A DNA stretch of 45,197 nt from Bacillota bacterium (GTDB taxonomy: Bacteria; Bacillota; Negativicutes; Sporomusales; CTSoil-080), in contig JAGGAC010000040.1 in the NCBI GenBank assembly GCA_017889635.1, positions 1 through 45,197 on the forward strand. The letters are read 5' to 3'. How positions within the stretch are numbered: the stretch's first letter is position 1; each line of letters starts with the position of its first letter. The translations under genes and the position numbers were made by a program. The notes below the pieces were generated by a model, which saw only the letters and a list, made by a program, of their open reading frames with translations, did not search any database and was not told the origin of the DNA. This document shows, one piece after another, positions 36,983 through 45,197 of this stretch.

Positions 36983-38326
36983 ATGGGCAAACTTTTTGGC
37001 ACTGATGGGGTTCGCGGCGTAGCTAATACTGAACTTACTCCCGAATTAGCCTTTCGCTTGGGAAGGGCAGCTACAGCATTTTTTGGACGGGAGTGCACTC
37101 GGCCAAAGTTTGTTGTTGGGCGGGATACTCGTATTTCTGGACAAATGTTGGAATCGGCTTTAGCGGCTGGCATTTGTTCCGCTGGTGGCGAAGCCATTAA
37201 TGTAGGTGTTATTCCTACTCCGGCGGTAGCATATCTTGCTCGTGTTATGGGTGCCCAGGCAGGGGTAGTAATATCGGCATCACATAATCCCTATCCTGAT
37301 AATGGAATAAAGTTTTTTTCTGGGAATGGTAATAAACTGCCGGATGCTACTGAAGATGAACTGGAAAAACTAGTATTGGCCGAACCCGATCTTTTGGCAC
37401 GCCCTTCTGGAGAAAATGTTGGCTCCATTCAGTATCGTCATGATTTGATTGATACGTATATTGAGCATGCCATCAGTACGGTAGACGCTGATTTCAAGGG
37501 GCTAAAAATAGTCGTGGACTGCGCCCATGGTGCGGCTTACGAGGTTGCGCCGACAATTTTTAAACGGCTGGGGGCTCAGGTGATAGTTCTAAATAACCAA
37601 CCGACAGGGACAAACATTAATCTAGAATGCGGTTCAACTCATTTGGACTCCTTAAAGGCAGCTGTAGTTGAACATCAGGCTGATCTTGGAATTGGTCATG
37701 ATGGAGACGCGGACCGTTGTCTGGCGGTGGATGAAACCGGAAATGTTGTTGATGGCGATCAGATTATGGTTATTTGTGCTCAGGAACTATTGCGATGCGG
37801 AAAGCTTTCGGACAATACGCTGGTGGCCACTGTCATGAGTAATATTGGTTTACACCAGGCTATTAAACGGGCCGGGGGCAATGTGGTTATTACTCCGGTA
37901 GGCGATCGCTATGTTTTGGAGGTCATGAATGCTCATGGCTATAGTCTGGGAGGGGAACAGTCGGGCCATATTATCTTTAGTGAGCACAGCACTACTGGTG
38001 ACGGGATTGTTACCGCATTACAGCTAATTGCGGCTCTAATCAATTCCGGTAAAAAACTTTCTGAATTGGCTGCGCTGATGACTTGTTTTCCGCAACTCTT
38101 GGTTAATGTACGGGTTGGTAGTAAAGACGGCTGGCAAGAAAACACTAATATTACGGCTGCCATTAGGGCGGCTGAGGCTGAGCTTGGTGAGAACGGCCGG
38201 GTTTTGGTTCGGCCGTCAGGTACAGAGCCACTTATCAGGGTTATGGCCGAGGGACCTTCGCTAGTCGAACTTGAACGGTTAGTGAAAAACGTTGTTGCAG
38301 TTATCAGGCAAGAACTACCGGGTTGA
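36983..38326 (+). CDS. glmM: Phosphoglucosamine mutase
   Basis: A 447-residue alpha-D-phosphohexomutase converting glucosamine-6-P to glucosamine-1-P. FGTDGVRGVAN at the start, the phosphoserine loop VVISASHNPYPDNGIKFF near residue 100, the magnesium loop GHDGDADRC, the sugar loop GGEQSGHIIF and the phosphate loop RPSGTEPLIRVMAEG are all intact. ATG 36983 follows GAGGGGA; an in-frame upstream stretch lies within the preceding gene. It also binds and inhibits CdaA in other Firmicutes. Confidence 0.97.
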   Translation: MGKLFGTDGVRGVANTELTPELAFRLGRAATAFFGRECTRPKFVVGRDTRISGQMLESALAAGICSAGGEAINVGVIPTPAVAYLARVMGAQAGVVISASHNPYPDNGIKFFSGNGNKLPDATEDELEKLVLAEPDLLARPSGENVGSIQYRHDLIDTYIEHAISTVDADFKGLKIVVDCAHGAAYEVAPTIFKRLGAQVIVLNNQPTGTNINLECGSTHLDSLKAAVVEHQADLGIGHDGDADRCLAVDETGNVVDGDQIMVICAQELLRCGKLSDNTLVATVMSNIGLHQAIKRAGGNVVITPVGDRYVLEVMNAHGYSLGGEQSGHIIFSEHSTTGDGIVTALQLIAALINSGKKLSELAALMTCFPQLLVNVRVGSKDGWQENTNITAAIRAAEAELGENGRVLVRPSGTEPLIRVMAEGPSLVELERLVKNVVAVIRQELPG

Positions 38327-38351
38327 CCAGATTGGTTTATTAGTATAAAAT
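38323..38351 (+). promoter_or_regulatory. Possible glmS promoter
   Basis: TTGACC (38323-38328) overlaps the glmM stop and lies 17 bases from TAAAAT (38346-38351). A TATAAT at 38359-38364 is an alternative -10 without a good -35. A promoter here would place the hairpin at 38365-38392 and the ribozyme in the glmS leader. Confidence 0.4.
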
Positions 38352-38364
38352 ATATGCGTATAAT

Positions 38365-38392
38365 GTAAGGGAGCACTGTAGTGCTCCCTTAC
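38365..38392. other. Perfect 12-bp hairpin between glmM and glmS
   Basis: GTAAGGGAGCAC (38365-38376) and GTGCTCCCTTAC (38381-38392) form a perfect stem around TGTA. No T-run follows, so it is not a standard terminator. It lies between the possible glmS promoter and the ribozyme. It could be a transcript-end stabiliser for glmM, a protein site, or a dispersed palindrome; copies elsewhere cannot be checked here. Confidence 0.6.
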
Positions 38393-38492
38393 GCTATACA
38401 CATGCCCTGCTGGGAGGTGCGGCGGCAGCAAATTAGTGATTCGAGAAAACAGGAGGTGTGGAATATAAAGTATCTTTTACAAACGAATAAAA

Positions 38493-38620
38493 GCGCTGGC
38501 GCTTGCCTGAACGTATTCGGCAAGCGGACGAGGAAGAGGTTAATCGAAAAGTCGGCGGATGCCTCTCGGCTACTGCGGCCGTTAGCAGTCGACAAAACCG
38601 CGGGGTGACCTGCGGGACAA
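38493..38620 (+). ncRNA. glmS ribozyme (glucosamine-6-phosphate-activated, self-cleaving)
   Basis: The leader of glmS contains the conserved ribozyme core. The predicted cleavage site is between A 38492 and G 38493 (AA-GCGC). P2 is GCTTGCC (38501-38507) with GGCAAGC (38519-38525); then GGACGAGGAAGAGGTTAATC, TCGGCGGATGCCTCTCGGC, the CGGCCGTTAGCAG segment and ACAAAACCGC follow the family pattern. P4 is CCGCGGG/CCTGCGG capped by GTGA. GlcN6P acts as cofactor for self-cleavage, after which the mRNA is degraded, giving feedback control of GlmS. The 3' limit is approximate. Confidence 0.92.
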
Positions 38621-38678
38621 AACGCCTGTGGCAGAAAAAAACAAAGAAAACAGACAAAATATAGGAGGAATATACCTA

Positions 38679-40508
38679 ATGTGTGGTATTGTTGGATATA
38701 TTGGCCCTAAACAGGCTGCTCAATTTTTGATTGAAGGATTAAAAAAATTAGAATACCGGGGATATGACTCAGCCGGTATTGCCGTATATGATGGCAGTAA
38801 GATTAATGTTGAGAAAAGTGTGGGCAGGCTCAATGTTTTAGAGAAAAAGGTAGAACAGATTGCTCCAAAAGGTCATGTAGGTATTGGGCACACTCGTTGG
38901 GCGACTCATGGTCGTCCGTCTGATGCTAATTCGCATCCTCATACCGATTGTAGCGGCAATTTTGTGGTTGTGCACAACGGAATTATTGAGAATTATCTCC
39001 ATCTGAAGGAAAAGCTTATTGCCAAAGGTCATGTTTTTACCTCTGAGACTGATACTGAGGTACTGGCTCACCTGGTTGAAGAGCATTACCAGGGTGACTT
39101 TGAAGCGGCGGTAAAAAAGGTTTTGGCTGATGTCGAGGGTTCTTATGCAATGGTTTTTCTTTCTAACTATGAACCGGACAAAATAATCTGTTCTAAGCAG
39201 GATAATCCGTTGGTTATCGGTTTGGGCGACGGGGAAAATTTTGTTGCTTCTGATATTCCGGCGATTATTAATCGTACTCGCAAAACGTATATTTTGAGTG
39301 ACGGAGAAATGGCTATTGTTACTAAGGATTCGGTCTGGGTGATGAATCGGCAAGGCGTTCCGGTCAGTAAAAAGGTCTTTGAGGTGCATTGGGATGCCGA
39401 AGCTGCCGAAAAAGGCGGCTACGAACATTTCATGATTAAAGAAATCTATGAGCAACCCAAAGCGATTCGTGAAACTACTGCTGGCCGTCTGGCTAAGGAC
39501 GATAGTAGTATAATTTTTGATGAATTGAAATGGACCAAAGATGATGTAGCTGCTATTAGGAAAATTACTATTGTTGCCTGTGGTACTGCTTACCATGCTG
39601 GGATAGTTGGCAAGTATTACCTTGAACAGTTAGCTCGAATTCCGGTCGAAGTAGATGTAGCTTCAGAGTTTAGATATCGTTCGCCACTAGTTGATGACAA
39701 AACATTGGCGATTGTTATCAGCCAATCAGGAGAAACACTTGATACACTGGCGGCGCTTAAGGAAGCAAAAAAACTCGGCGCCAGGACGTTGGCGATCACC
39801 AATGTAGTTGGGTCATCGATCGCTCGTGAAGCCGATCAGGTCATTTATACTCAGGCTGGACCGGAAATTGCGGTGGCGTCAACCAAGGCTTATACTACTC
39901 AGCTTATCGGTCTCTTAATGGTGGCCTTATATTTTGCTGCTTTCAAGGGAACTTTGCCAGAGGAGCGGATACAGGCAATAATCAGGGGGCTTAAACAATT
40001 GCCAAGTCAGGCCCATGAAATACTAGAAGATGTTGAGGCTATCAAGACCTTTGCTAAGGAGTATGGCTTTAATGAAGATGTGTTTTTTATCGGGCGGTCG
40101 TTGGACTACGCTGTGGCCCTCGAAGGTTCATTGAAATTAAAGGAGATTTCGTATATTCATGCTGAAGCTTATGCTGCCGGTGAACTGAAACATGGTACGC
40201 TGGCTCTCATAATTGAAGGTGTGCCAGTCATCGCGTTGGCTACACAACGCGATGTATATGAAAAAACGTTAAGTAATATTAAAGAAGTTAAGGCTCGCGA
40301 TGCAGTGGTAATTGGTATCGGAATGCAAGGTGATGAGGAGATTAAAAAGTATGTCGATCATACCATTTTGATACCTGTTACTGATAAATATTTGGCTCCG
40401 ATATTGGCGGTTATACCTCTCCAACTCTTAGCTTATTATGCTGCTGTTACCCGTGGTGCTGATGTCGATAAGCCGCGTAATCTAGCTAAAAGCGTAACTG
40501 TGGAATAA
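38679..40508 (+). CDS. glmS: Glutamine-fructose-6-phosphate aminotransferase (isomerizing)
   Basis: A 609-residue enzyme making glucosamine-6-P, the entry step to UDP-GlcNAc. The catalytic N-terminal cysteine follows the initiator Met (MCGIVGYIG). HTRWATHGRPSD and VVHNGIIENY belong to the glutaminase domain. Two SIS domains follow (SQSGETLDTLAALKEAKK; the KEISYIHAEAYAAGELKHG region), ending in the conserved KPRNLAKSVTVE. ATG 38679 has TAGGAGG, and only this start exposes the catalytic cysteine. Controlled by the ribozyme upstream. Confidence 0.98.
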   Translation: MCGIVGYIGPKQAAQFLIEGLKKLEYRGYDSAGIAVYDGSKINVEKSVGRLNVLEKKVEQIAPKGHVGIGHTRWATHGRPSDANSHPHTDCSGNFVVVHNGIIENYLHLKEKLIAKGHVFTSETDTEVLAHLVEEHYQGDFEAAVKKVLADVEGSYAMVFLSNYEPDKIICSKQDNPLVIGLGDGENFVASDIPAIINRTRKTYILSDGEMAIVTKDSVWVMNRQGVPVSKKVFEVHWDAEAAEKGGYEHFMIKEIYEQPKAIRETTAGRLAKDDSSIIFDELKWTKDDVAAIRKITIVACGTAYHAGIVGKYYLEQLARIPVEVDVASEFRYRSPLVDDKTLAIVISQSGETLDTLAALKEAKKLGARTLAITNVVGSSIAREADQVIYTQAGPEIAVASTKAYTTQLIGLLMVALYFAAFKGTLPEERIQAIIRGLKQLPSQAHEILEDVEAIKTFAKEYGFNEDVFFIGRSLDYAVALEGSLKLKEISYIHAEAYAAGELKHGTLALIIEGVPVIALATQRDVYEKTLSNIKEVKARDAVVIGIGMQGDEEIKKYVDHTILIPVTDKYLAPILAVIPLQLLAYYAAVTRGADVDKPRNLAKSVTVE

Positions 40509-40524
40509 AATAGATAATAACATC

Positions 40525-40566
40525 AAAACCAGGACTCGCCTTAGGGCGATTAAGTCCTGGTTTTTT
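40525..40566 (+). terminator. Intrinsic terminator after glmS
   Basis: AAAACCAGGACT (40525-40536) pairs with AGTCCTGGTTTT (40553-40564), with an inner CGCC/GGCG stem, then a T-run to 40566. A strong terminator that ends the cda-glm block. The following 175 bases to the next promoter hold no gene that I can support. Confidence 0.93.
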
Positions 40567-40742
40567 AGTTTGGCAAACATAAGAGTATTTAAGGCATGTC
40601 AAATAGTATAAGCCTTTTTATGATGCTAGGATTAAAGAGAGGACAATACGATTATTGGTACTTATAGCTTTCTTTTGCAATACCAACTTAATTACATAAC
40701 ATGTTTATCTAAATACTATACAAAATTATAAGGAAAAATATA

Positions 40743-40771
40743 TTGACCGATTGAAATAAAATGTAGATAAT
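40743..40771 (+). promoter_or_regulatory. Promoter before the small membrane peptide
   Basis: TTGACC (40743-40748), 17-base spacer, GATAAT (40766-40771), in AT-rich sequence. About 83 bases separate it from the GTG start at 40855. It is the first promoter-like sequence after the glmS terminator and marks the start of the accessory region. Confidence 0.6.
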
Positions 40772-40854
40772 ATAAAAGGTTAATAAAGAAAAGGCTGATG
40801 GTTTAAAAGAAAATCAAAAGCAATGGATTTCATAAGTGCGAGGAGAGGGGAGAT

Positions 40855-40971
40855 GTGAACGAGTATATGAAAGCACCCCAAACTACAAATCAGAAAATAG
40901 TGCGCTTTGCCATTGTTTTCGGTGTGGGAATGGCAGTTTTTTTTACGATAACTATTTTGCGGCATATGTAA
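40855..40971 (+). CDS. 38-residue single-pass membrane peptide
   Basis: GTG at 40855 is preceded by a very strong ribosome binding site (GAGGAGAGGGGAG, 40839-40851). The product begins MNEYMKAPQTTNQKIVRF and continues with a hydrophobic stretch (AIVFGVGMAVFFTITIL) and a short RHM tail, so a basic/polar N-terminus is followed by one membrane helix. I do not recognise the family. Promoter, ribosome binding site and a clean hydrophobic helix make it more credible than chance. It ends 12 bases before the left inverted repeat of the 607-bp element. It could be a small regulatory membrane peptide or a toxin-like peptide; nothing shows which. Confidence 0.6.
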   Translation: MNEYMKAPQTTNQKIVRFAIVFGVGMAVFFTITILRHM

Positions 40972-40983
40972 TAAATAGGCAGG

Positions 40984-41012
40984 TTGTTCTTTAACAAAGT
41001 TCTGAAAGTCTT
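40984..41012 (+). repeat. Left terminal inverted repeat
   Basis: 29 bases beginning TTGTTCTTTAAC and ending AAAGTTCTGAAAGTCTT. It differs from its partner at 41562-41590 only by two C/T changes. Confidence 0.8.
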
Positions 41013-41089
41013 GATGGTAGAGCTATGTTTTACAAAAAAATTACTAATGTATGTATATTGATTACTTGAATATATGGAGGAGTATTACT

Positions 41090-41512
41090 ATGATTATTGG
41101 AATGATATTCGGATTAATTATTGGGTTAGCATTCTATGGGCTTGGTTGCTATATAACCTGTCGGTTATTACAAAAGTTTGTGCCATCTACTGAATTGAAA
41201 GAATGTCTAATACCATTTTGGAATATGTATCTTGTTTTGCGTGTTGCAGTAACTAATCCAGTTCCTTATTTTTGGTACATTGTATTGCCTTCGTTGGTGC
41301 TTGGCTTTTTAGGAGGGCTGTTGGATTTATCGGCTTTAAGAAGCCTTGGCAGTTTGATTGGCGCAATATTGTGGGCGCGAGCTATGGGCCTAATTGCTGA
41401 AAAACTAGGGAAAAACTTTTGGGCGTTTGCCGTTTTAACAGTAATTCCTGTTGGTAATTTTGTTGGGTTGTGCATATTGGCCTTTGATGACAGCAAGCCT
41501 TTAGAGAGATAA
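41090..41512 (+). CDS. Small polytopic membrane protein (DUF5684-like)
   Basis: A 140-residue protein with about four hydrophobic segments. The pattern CLIPFWNMYLVLRVA in the middle, AEKLGKNFWAFAVLTVIPVGNF and the end LCILAFDDSK resembles the DUF5684-type family, in which a Pro-x-x-Asn turn, a later FGK-like segment and a LAFGDSxY end recur. The resemblance is by memory, and function is unknown. ATG 41090 follows GGAGGA. It is the only gene inside the 607-bp inverted-repeat element, so it may be cargo. Confidence 0.7.
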   Translation: MIIGMIFGLIIGLAFYGLGCYITCRLLQKFVPSTELKECLIPFWNMYLVLRVAVTNPVPYFWYIVLPSLVLGFLGGLLDLSALRSLGSLIGAILWARAMGLIAEKLGKNFWAFAVLTVIPVGNFVGLCILAFDDSKPLER

Positions 41513-41561
41513 GAGTTTTTATATAAAACATTAAGGTTAATTTATAAAAGCGAAGCTTGAA

Positions 41562-41590
41562 AAGACTTTCAGAACTTTATTAAAAAACAA
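41562..41590 (-). repeat. Right terminal inverted repeat
   Basis: Reverse-complement partner of 40984-41012, 27 of 29 bases identical. It lies 49 bases after the stop of the membrane-protein gene. Confidence 0.8.
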
Positions 41591-41662
41591 TGATTGCGGA
41601 AGAAAAATGATAGTTAACTGGTTTTGGTGGGTGGGGTGAATGTTTATCAAGGAGTTGAAAGT

Positions 41663-42493
41663 ATGACGGGTATTATAGCGCAATTAATCGCATTGGTTTC
41701 GTATGGCAATGAATTTTTTGCAACAGGCAATATTGCAAATGATTATTTTCCTGCAAATAGCACATTCACCTATTGCAATACGGCTGATTTTCGAATTATT
41801 AGGAAACGGTTTTTGAGCTCGGAAAAGAAAGAAAGTGTTGTGGCAGAAAATCCGCTGGAATGGTTTCGGTGGCTTAAAGTAAATGGGTGTCAAAGATTAA
41901 GGCTTAGTTATAAGGGGTCAGATGATACAGCAATAGCGCGGGACTATAAATTGGCAGGTTTTGTAGGCGGCGGTGGAACGTGGCTGTTAGAAGCTGTATA
42001 TCCGAAACATAGAGACTGTTGGGCAAATCGCTGGGAAGTAAACAGGAGGAATGCAGATGATAGGAAGATATGGAGTGTTAATTATAGACGTATAATGGCT
42101 AAGCAACCTATTTATGATGCGAGCTTTGATATAAGAAAAGCAGCGGAGAATCTAGAAGAAGCGCTGATCCAAATTAGTAGTTTTGCACGGAGGCAACACC
42201 TGAACAATGGAATAGCGTGGGCCGGTATATTTGAGCAGGCGCGGCAAATTATGCGTAATCAGACATTGCGAAGTGATTACTTTCATCAAGATCTTATTGT
42301 AAATAAAAATTATTCCCTGCTTGCGCAGAAGACTATCTTTTCAGCTGCTTCGGCTTGGGTATTTGGTGGAATGGGTTCCTGGAATGACCTCGGTTTTGAG
42401 AGTGAAAAAGACCAGTTGCGGTATGAAGATTTATCCGCCCAGCTATACAAAGCGATAATAGAAGCGACTATTACCGTAATAAATTCGTATTGA
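41663..42493 (+). CDS. Conserved hypothetical protein, 276 residues
   Basis: I cannot name this family, but it looks like a conserved one. The sequence has a tryptophan/glycine-rich core: NPLEWFRWLKVNGCQRLRL, AGFVGGGGTWLLEAVYP, NRWEVNRRNADDRKIWSVNY, and near the end AASAWVFGGMGSWNDLGFE. A helical segment of roughly residues 165-185 (AAENLEEALIQISSFAR) precedes the last part. No signal peptide or membrane helix is convincing, so it is probably cytosolic. AAGGAG selects ATG 41663. Its stop is 11 bases before the DUF1963 gene, suggesting an operon. Confidence 0.75.
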   Translation: MTGIIAQLIALVSYGNEFFATGNIANDYFPANSTFTYCNTADFRIIRKRFLSSEKKESVVAENPLEWFRWLKVNGCQRLRLSYKGSDDTAIARDYKLAGFVGGGGTWLLEAVYPKHRDCWANRWEVNRRNADDRKIWSVNYRRIMAKQPIYDASFDIRKAAENLEEALIQISSFARRQHLNNGIAWAGIFEQARQIMRNQTLRSDYFHQDLIVNKNYSLLAQKTIFSAASAWVFGGMGSWNDLGFESEKDQLRYEDLSAQLYKAIIEATITVINSY

Positions 42494-42504
42494 TGGAGGC
42501 TATT

Positions 42505-43437
42505 ATGCTTACTGCAGAATTGCAAGAGAAATTAAACAAATTTATCGCGAAATATGAACTAGAAAGCATACAAGAATTGTTGTTACAACATGCTGAAGTT
42601 TGTATAGGTATTAAGCTGACTAAGGAAGAAGACTACAGCAGCATTGGCAACAGCAGGATTGCAGGTCAGCCTGATTTGCCGCCAGAATTTGAGTGGCCGG
42701 GTACTAATAAGGAGTATTATACTTTTCTTGCACAAATTAACTTGAGTGAAGTTCCTGGCAATTTTATAAATCATTTGCCCAAGTCAGGAATGCTGTACTT
42801 TTTTTTGGGCGTTGATGAATCAGTTTATGACATCGCTCACAAGGTACTTTATTATGATGGTGATTTATCTCGCTTAAAACTAACTCTGCCACCTGAAGGT
42901 AAAGAAGCGTGTTCGTCTGAATATCGCAATTTTATTTCCTATCAAATAGCTTTTGCTCCTGATTATTGTATTCGTCATAGTAGTCAGATTATTGAGTTCC
43001 TGCAAGATAGATATGAAGCAGCCTATCGTGAACTTAATTATGAAGATAGTCAACTGTGGGGGCGCCCAGCTGGTTTTGCCGGCGATGCGCGGCGTGATGC
43101 ATATTTTTGCCGTAATGGGTTGGAGAGCTTATTATTTAATTATTTTGAAACACCAGAGAAAATTAAAGCAAAGGCGAAAATGACTCGAGCAAAGGGAAGA
43201 GAAGAGTATGCGGAAAAACTCGAAAATGTTATACTTCCCCAGTTAATTGAGTATACAACGAATAAGAAGCGCCATGATCAGGCAATTAAAAATTGGCAAT
43301 TGTTGTTTAAGTTTGCTTCGTTAGAGGAAGCGGGCATGAACTGGTGGGATGCGGGGATACTGCAATTTTTAATTGATATAAATGACCTGGGAAAACGTAA
43401 TTTTACTAATACATATGCTAATATTGCGCCAAGCTGA
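42505..43437 (+). CDS. DUF1963 (YwqG-like) family protein
   Basis: A 310-residue soluble protein. SRIAGQPDLPPEFEWP near residue 50, followed by YYTFLAQINLSEVP and SGMLYFFLGVDES, is the DUF1963/YwqG signature (GGxPxLPxxxxWP, then FLxQINL). The middle has QLWGRPAGFAGDARRD, resembling the family's LLGHPxxIQGD segment. YwqG homologues occur beside polymorphic toxin and immunity genes, but no biochemical role is proven. The C-terminal 100 residues (charged, then LLFKFASLEEAGMNWWDAGILQFLI) also match this family. GGAGG favours ATG 42505 over ATG 42493. Confidence 0.85.
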   Translation: MLTAELQEKLNKFIAKYELESIQELLLQHAEVCIGIKLTKEEDYSSIGNSRIAGQPDLPPEFEWPGTNKEYYTFLAQINLSEVPGNFINHLPKSGMLYFFLGVDESVYDIAHKVLYYDGDLSRLKLTLPPEGKEACSSEYRNFISYQIAFAPDYCIRHSSQIIEFLQDRYEAAYRELNYEDSQLWGRPAGFAGDARRDAYFCRNGLESLLFNYFETPEKIKAKAKMTRAKGREEYAEKLENVILPQLIEYTTNKKRHDQAIKNWQLLFKFASLEEAGMNWWDAGILQFLIDINDLGKRNFTNTYANIAPS

Positions 43438-43482
43438 AAGTAATACGATAGTGGATTTGAGAACCATAATAGGAGGAATGTT

Positions 43483-43821
43483 GTGAAAATACGACTAGGG
43501 GGATTATTACTTATATTAGGCGGGTTGGTTCTGGGGTATTTTTTTATTTACACGCCTGTGGAGGAAGCCACGCAAGGAGCTAAGACCATTTCAACATCAA
43601 TGAAAGGCGCAGTACTTACACCAATGGTTTTGGTTCTGGGGATAGGTATGTTAATCTGGGGTGAAAGGTTTACAACAGTTATTAGTAATACACCGGAAAA
43701 AGCCAAACGATATGGGAAAACATCTTTGGTTGGCTGGATGGTTTTAGGGACTGCGATGCTAAGTGGTTTTGGTGTATATTATTGGTTGGAGAATGCGCTT
43801 AAAGCATACGGCTATTATTAA
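43483..43821 (+). CDS. Small membrane protein, three predicted helices
   Basis: A 112-residue protein with hydrophobic segments near residues 5-25, 43-60 and 81-102, and short polar loops (VEEATQGAKTISTSMKG; NTPEKAKRYGKTS). I do not recognise the family. GTG 43483 follows AGGAGG. It is 45 bases after the DUF1963 gene with no terminator between, so it may be the last gene of that group. Confidence 0.7.
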   Translation: MKIRLGGLLLILGGLVLGYFFIYTPVEEATQGAKTISTSMKGAVLTPMVLVLGIGMLIWGERFTTVISNTPEKAKRYGKTSLVGWMVLGTAMLSGFGVYYWLENALKAYGYY

Positions 43822-43989
43822 TTTTATCAATAATAGGGGTTTAGTATGTAGATGCGGATATCGGCCGATTTCATAATCATATCGTTGCAAAATGCTGAAT
43901 AAATTCCGTATGTTGCATTATGGTGAACTAATAGTATGACACGAATATGGTACACAGAGCCCAATTTGAATATGGTATAGTTTAACTAG

Positions 43990-44020
43990 AAAAAGGCTGC
44001 CCGGAGAGGGTGGCTTTTTT
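43990..44020 (+). terminator. Intrinsic terminator
   Basis: AAAAAGGCTGCCC and GGGTGGCTTTTTT pair almost fully (two G-U pairs) around GGAGA, with a T-run. It separates the accessory genes from the repeat protein. The 168 bases before it hold no gene; a 10-base direct repeat GAATATGGTA occurs twice there, about 27 bases apart. Confidence 0.85.
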
Positions 44021-44101
44021 ATTTATGCAGGAGGTGAACTAGGATGTAGTTGCAGATAGTAGTTCGATAATCGTGATACTTTAAAGAGGAGGCAGGCGGA
44101 G

Positions 44102-45197
44102 ATGAAAAATCTCGAAGTCGTTTGTGGGGTAAAAAGCAGTGAAAAGGTGATCACAACGACGATTACGGAAAAAAATAAGAAATATGGGGCAACGGATACC
44201 GATGTGTCTAGTGTGTATGTTGACTATGAAGGTAACTTAACGTTGATTAATCCGACAATTACGAAGAGCGGCGATACTTCGTCGTCAAACGCCAGCAGTT
44301 CAACCGGACTCAATGCGGCGGTATGGGCAAAGGGCGCTAGTACGGTGACGATTTCTGACGGTACGGTGACAACTGACGCTGTCGGAGGTAACGGGGTTTT
44401 CGCCGCTGATTTAGGTACAGCGGTAACGCTCTCGGATCTTACGATTGAAACCAGCGCTGATTATGCTCATGGCGTGGATGCGGTTAATGGCGCGTTGATA
44501 ACGCTTAATAATGTGACGGTAACTACAGAGGGAGCGCATTGTTCTGCTATTGCCACGGATGCCGGAAGAGGGAATGCAACCACGCTAGTGGTTGCCGGTG
44601 GTACGTTTGTTGCTAATGGTGAAGGTTCGGCAGCGATTTATTGTGACGGCGACGGTGTCGTTACGGTATCTGATGCTACGGCTACAGCTACCAATGATAA
44701 TGGCGCTGTAATTGATCGCAATGGGATTCTTAGTTTGAGCAATACTGTTCTTGTTGGTTCAGTCAATGGAATTATGGTCCATGACTCTGAATCATCAACG
44801 CGAACGGCGATTATAAGCATTGATGGGGGTTCAGTTACCGGGCAGGGAGGTGCCGGGATTTTGATTACTGGTACCGGAATGACGGCGGAGGTTACGGTTA
44901 CTGGCGGCGCTGTTATCAGCGGGAGCAATGATACTATTATTGAAGCGGCTGAGGACGGACAGGCAATTTTTACTGCTGACGGAGAAACTTTGGCCGGAAA
45001 TTTAGTTTCTGACAATACTTCACTTACAGCTGTTTTGCAAAACGGAACTATTTTGACAGGATGTATCAATGGTGAAAATACAGCTTCAGCAATTAATTTG
45101 ACACTTGATGAAACAAGCACATGGAGTGTAACCGGAACATCGTATCTGACAACATTTACTGATGCCGATACTAGTTTAGCTAACATTGATGATAATG
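44102..45197 (+). CDS. Beta-helix-like repeat protein, N-terminal part (runs off window)
   Basis: An open frame of at least 365 residues from ATG 44102 (AGAGGAGG nine bases upstream) with no stop before the right edge. The sequence is rich in Thr, Gly, Ala, Ser, Asn and Val. Short repeated strands such as GASTVTISDGTVTT, GTAVTLSDLTIET, GALITLNNVTVTT and GDGVVTVSDATATA recur every 22-26 residues, the pattern of a right-handed parallel beta-helix (pectate-lyase/adhesin type). No N-terminal signal peptide is visible (MKNLEVVCGVKSSEK). Probably a surface or secreted adhesin whose export signal or anchor lies elsewhere; function unproven. Confidence 0.8.
   Translation, partial: MKNLEVVCGVKSSEKVITTTITEKNKKYGATDTDVSSVYVDYEGNLTLINPTITKSGDTSSSNASSSTGLNAAVWAKGASTVTISDGTVTTDAVGGNGVFAADLGTAVTLSDLTIETSADYAHGVDAVNGALITLNNVTVTTEGAHCSAIATDAGRGNATTLVVAGGTFVANGEGSAAIYCDGDGVVTVSDATATATNDNGAVIDRNGILSLSNTVLVGSVNGIMVHDSESSTRTAIISIDGGSVTGQGGAGILITGTGMTAEVTVTGGAVISGSNDTIIEAAEDGQAIFTADGETLAGNLVSDNTSLTAVLQNGTILTGCINGENTASAINLTLDETSTWSVTGTSYLTTFTDADTSLANIDDN

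Follow-up and report, generated by a model that had tools for sequence, protein, structure and literature searches.

A single-copy inverted repeat pair around a small membrane-protein gene downstream of glmS in a Bacillota draft genome

A 607-bp stretch downstream of glmS in a Bacillota genome has the outline of a small transposon, with two inverted repeats and a gene between them, and it raises the question of whether such a structure is a mobile element, a segment that inverts or a fixed feature of its locus. The stretch lies in a contig of 45,197 bases, all of which was analysed and which is called the window here. The contig belongs to a draft genome of 4.54 Mb, which comprises 152 contigs and has a contamination of 3.9%. 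The features that are needed in the following are these, in their order along the window:

40541-40560, + strand: terminator-like hairpin after glmS, the sole + strand site of its kind in 40400-42700
40743-40771, + strand: promoter-like site (10/12) upstream of the left arm
40855-40971, + strand: 38-residue ORF upstream of the left arm, with no family match and of uncertain status as a gene
40984-41012, + strand: left arm of the inverted repeat, 29 nt, with its perfect core at 40996-41012
41066-41094: promoter-like site (9/12) overlapping the start codon of the 140-residue gene
41090-41512, + strand: gene for a 140-residue membrane protein of a distantly DUF5684-like family, with a likely ribosome-binding site (GGAGG) read in the sequence just upstream
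41562-41590, - strand: right arm of the inverted repeat, 29 nt, with its perfect core at 41562-41578
41663-42493, + strand: 276-residue orphan gene downstream, with no match in 398 relatives

The two arms form an inverted match at 27 of 29 bases, including a perfect core of 17 bases, and are separated by a spacer of 549 nt. Both arms have sharp edges, where identity gives way to background immediately outside and inside. An earlier reading of this DNA from its sequence only had described the pair, and its coordinates, length, identity, core and sharp limits were all found to be exact. The outer 12 bases of the arms are AT-rich and would favour a chance similarity of two AT-rich stretches, but when the window was resampled 30 times with a first-order Markov model, the best spaced inverted 29-mer pair scored only 23/29. 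Furthermore, the core 17-mer was observed at two sites in the window when up to 2 mismatches were allowed, against 0.01 expected in shuffled windows. Chance similarity is contradicted by these shuffles and its probability is negligible. Elsewhere in the window, no spaced inverted 29-mer pair with a span of up to 1500 nt exceeded 21/29.

Inverted pairs in general are no rarity in this genome. As an empirical control, 20 of its stretches with 301,431 bases in all were scanned (span up to 2000 nt) and gave four pairs of at least 23/29, which score 26, 25, 24 and 23. The 26/29 pair arises from long palindromes, two copies of which surround a lipid A acyltransferase gene (Lip_A_acyltrans; L046, G000:C1, 12173-13209). 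The 25/29 pair (L060) overlaps a stretch that recurs in two ORFs on that contig and the 24/29 pair (L053) sits in a run of short GTAACGC repeats. By our reading, three of the four control pairs appear to derive from repeated sequence. The window pair is the strongest seen, while inverted pairs of other origin are also present in the genome, and a match of 27/29 from single-copy arms that are not hairpins is unusual. An inverted chimera made during assembly or amplification might be suspected in a draft genome of this fragmentation and contamination. However, the arms of a chimera should be identical, whereas there are two differences between these arms, which also enclose an intact, co-directional gene. 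An artefact of this kind is very improbable.

Mobility would be expected to leave further copies of the arms. The sequence-only reading had suggested a MITE-like unit with cargo, to which additional copies of the same ends would lend support. In the draft genome itself, a search with the 29-mer that allowed up to 3 mismatches found no third arm. With the 17-mer core and 2 mismatches, there were two extra single sites, of which the site on C82 falls within a coding ORF and the site on C150 lies in none of the listed ORFs; with the outer 21-mer and 3 mismatches, there were four additional single sites, each on a different contig. Neither search produced a third arm. Among 398 relatives, a 26-nt arm pattern was observed at one 3-mismatch site in each of two genomes and the reversed control pattern gave one, and the arm-like sites are no more than chance would allow. 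An earlier version of the pattern, which carried a tail specific to the left arm, matched at 2-3 mismatches in 38 of the 398 other genomes and these matches were taken as chance. Left-arm matches in plasmids were partial (E of at least 1), and two viral contigs each held one match to the core that did not reach across the whole arm.

The ends of the stretch were also inspected for a target-site duplication. No direct repeat was observed at the arm ends, where two of eight flank bases agree, and with arms that differ at just 2 of 29 bases a target duplication ought still to be visible. Direct repeats (TTAA, TA) at an inner boundary prove nothing because they follow from the palindrome TTTAA/TTAAA. 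The MITE-like reading is therefore weak, as there is no third copy, no target duplication and only a chance level of sites in the relatives, and an active MITE family was rejected on the counts in the genome and its relatives. Two known types of transposon end were also considered and rejected. The arm has what we take to be a resemblance to the canonical IS6 terminal repeat, but around the seven IS6-type transposase matches of the genome the best arm-like stretch was 20/29, against 19 for a reversed control. As regards Tn7-type ends, the end region past glmS in a genome of the same family (G002) was, by eye, unlike the arms, and the window pair lies about 475 bp past glmS.

Upstream of the pair lies glmS with its glmS ribozyme, besides which nothing was found by an Rfam search of 38000-45197 at E up to 1. 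The sequence becomes AT-rich past glmS, with a G+C content of 31-37% in the intervals of 40400-41599 against 40-49% before. Past glmS, the genes on the same strand are the 38-residue ORF, the 140-residue gene, the 276-residue orphan, a DUF1963 protein and a 112-residue protein. The 276-residue protein has no counterpart in the plasmids or viral contigs searched, and a plasmid search with the locus region gave no match. As the 276-residue gene also had no match in any of the 398 relatives, neither an empty nor an occupied site was found there, and the suggestion of the earlier reading that the stretch was inserted into an existing transcription unit is conjectural. The region downstream of glmS is attTn7, where variability is expected. 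The place after glmS is variable here, because other genes follow glmS on both further contigs that hold its end, one in the same assembly (C120) and one in G002; in another genome (G001), glmS runs off the contig end. In G002 (C74, L032, 4596-6031), about 320 bp separate the glmS stop from the start of a gene that has both TnsA domains of Pfam, and the next ORF has no Pfam match. This TnsA gene is probably part of a Tn7-like insertion at the usual site.

The enclosed gene was compared with three homologues, two of which (138 and 153 aa) align with it end to end while the third falls short. The end-to-end alignments bear out the earlier view that the gene at 41090-41512 is intact. The homologues are 28-34% identical in one alignment and 34-39% in another. 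Three of the four members of the alignment gave weak matches to DUF5684 (PF18936), the best with an E of 0.015, but the window protein gave no match to it at E up to 5 and the family stays below the Pfam cut-off. The term DUF5684 was not encountered in the literature searched. The predicted structure had a low confidence (mean pLDDT 47.6), and a search of four proteins against a defence library gave no match.

The gene family was observed to be patchy. A single-sequence search matched in five of 100 genomes and a profile search in 11 of 380 genomes of the class, the own genome being included in both counts. Among the ten other genomes of the class, strong profile matches were limited to G022 and G042, whose sequences were themselves part of the query alignment of the profile. 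Neither search found the gene in the two genomes of the same family, and no homologue was found in the phages, plasmids or viral contigs searched. A scan of genome contigs gave two homologues, in Sporomusa silvacetica and in a Synergistes MAG. A second profile match in the own genome (C57, L085) contains a stop and was discarded as spurious.

Fourteen other loci of the gene family were scanned for repeats, mostly with flanks of about 1.5 kb and with L084, L086 and L087 left out; these loci include the spurious L085, one Sporomusa place that counts twice (L034 and L074) and several weak or broken matches. No inverted 29-mer pair of more than 21/29 encloses the gene in any of them. The repeats therefore seem to belong to the window locus rather than to the gene family. 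The best gene-enclosing 18-mer pairs in these loci scored 16/18, and they include a AGAACCGTC-type repeat of Sporomusa. In Sporomusa silvacetica (L034, 3480-5489), a 19-nt inverted pair of this type spans the neighbourhood of the homologous gene, and presumably it is a common dispersed repeat.

The anatomy of the locus invites comparison with mobile insertion cassettes, in which a gene lies between transposon ends, and the stretch could be a relic of one that was formerly moved in trans by a transposase now absent. Between the arms there is indeed no transposase, as the sequence-only reading had stated. Published mic elements are described as bracketed by inverted repeats with no transposase gene nearby, so that two inverted repeats, one cargo gene and no transposase fit these elements (PMC3913671). 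As an example, MIC231 and mic-qnrD carry two imperfect inverted repeats around a gene that is not a transposase, as the window locus does (PMC3913671). A relic would also agree with the variable region, where the content after glmS differs in C120 and G002, and with a cargo gene that is present in 10 of 379 other genomes of the class and strongly matched in only two. However, the window locus differs from MIC231 and mic-qnrD in having no target duplication and no further arm that could be found. The chance-level ends in the relatives, the partial plasmid matches, the lone core matches in two viral contigs and the IS6-type remnants of the own genome, which do not carry these ends, likewise speak against it. 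We regard an old, single relic cassette as unlikely.

An invertible, phase-variable segment would place the same arms in a different role. A recombinase encoded elsewhere would flip the 549-nt interior and thereby set the 140-residue gene with or against an upstream promoter. The inverted arms, their perfect 17-nt core and a position of the gene downstream of a promoter-like site agree with such a switch. In C. difficile, most of the seven invertible sites have unrelated repeats and the recombinase may be distant, as invertases can be encoded elsewhere in a genome (PMC5903667). The E. coli fimbrial switch and the C. difficile Cdi sites resemble the window locus in having inverted repeats around a few hundred bases beside a gene, (PMC5903667), but in the window a switch of orientation is hypothetical, the pair encloses a whole gene and no recombinase was recognised nearby. 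Inspection by eye of the ORF lists of the window, one of which was limited to ORFs of at least 160 aa, revealed no recombinase. Furthermore, many published switches lie between genes or in 5' untranslated regions, and their repeats are typically 10-20 nt long, often with mismatches (PMC5903667). The other 14 loci of the gene family hold no comparable pair. The window pair would thus fit the published invertible sites loosely, and inversion is in our view doubtful, although it is the alternative that we place highest.

The reading that we favour, at a probability of about 0.4, is a single-copy inverted duplication, fixed in place among consecutive genes of the same strand, which is not a mobile element and has a possible role in the mRNA. 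This reading is ranked first, followed by the invertible segment and then by the relic cassette. It is supported by the 27/29 identity with sharp ends, by the lack of a third copy in the own genome in the 29-mer, core and outer 21-mer searches, by the lack of a target-site duplication and by the 14 other loci, where no comparable enclosing pair was observed. The pair may have originated when one short stretch was copied as its reverse complement, as in a template switch during replication. This mechanism yields reverse-complement copies of a stretch (PMC8794818), but the spacer of 549 nt in the window is long for it and the event would be reconstructed with no ancestral sequence at hand.

We take the fixed duplication to be probably a unique case, in which the mRNA of the gene could be folded into a loop. 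If one transcript holds both arms, they are expected to form a stem of about 27 base pairs with the 140-residue cistron in its loop. Transcripts of 661, 923 and 1716 nt with assumed ends were modelled, and in these the arms were predicted to pair with a mean probability of 0.91. The arm duplex has a predicted energy of -28.8 kcal/mol against a best of -13.7 in 200 shuffles. No terminator-like site was found on the + strand between the arms. However, the whole 661-nt stretch folds unremarkably (z of -1.5, with two of 20 shuffles folding as well), and the predicted pairing mostly restates the existence of the repeat. Both differences between the arms become C-A mismatches, whereas G-U pairs would have preserved the stem. 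The searched genomes yielded no homologous locus in which covariation or conservation could reveal selection on a stem, and pairing of the arms would have to contend with translation of the cistron. The start of the transcript is a guess, because promoter-like sites are not enriched in the region, where six were counted against a shuffle mean of 8.1; the best of these is the site at 40743 (10/12).

If the stem forms, its likeliest effect would be on the processing or stability of the mRNA, for example through a cut of the RNase III type that parts the 140-residue cistron from the 276-residue cistron. The stems around 16S and 23S rRNA offer a parallel, as cuts of the RNase III type in them release the rRNA from its precursor. 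In those precursors, distant arms form a long stem that brackets a functional RNA, which is also predicted for the window arms, but the bracketed unit in the window is a protein gene and cleavage there is hypothetical. By this analogy, the cistron would be excised from an operon transcript by a long-range double-stranded stem and the repeats would be an mRNA processing device instead of transposon ends, which we consider improbable. The repeat pair may also be without function.

The repeat pair is real, unusual and single-copy, and the finding is a modest one. If the stretch inverts, it would act as a phase switch for an entire small membrane-protein gene; if the arms pair in RNA, they would form a processing stem that brackets a cistron. 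As things stand, the locus is mainly a caution that a clean transposon outline can come without other marks of mobility.

Two further observations were made. The second glmS of the assembly (G000:C120, L031, 894-2677) is 81-86% identical at the protein level and is split into two frames, and its contig may be contamination. At the far end of the window, the segment at 44102-45196 holds the start of a long threonine/serine-rich protein, which has no Pfam match and runs off the contig end.
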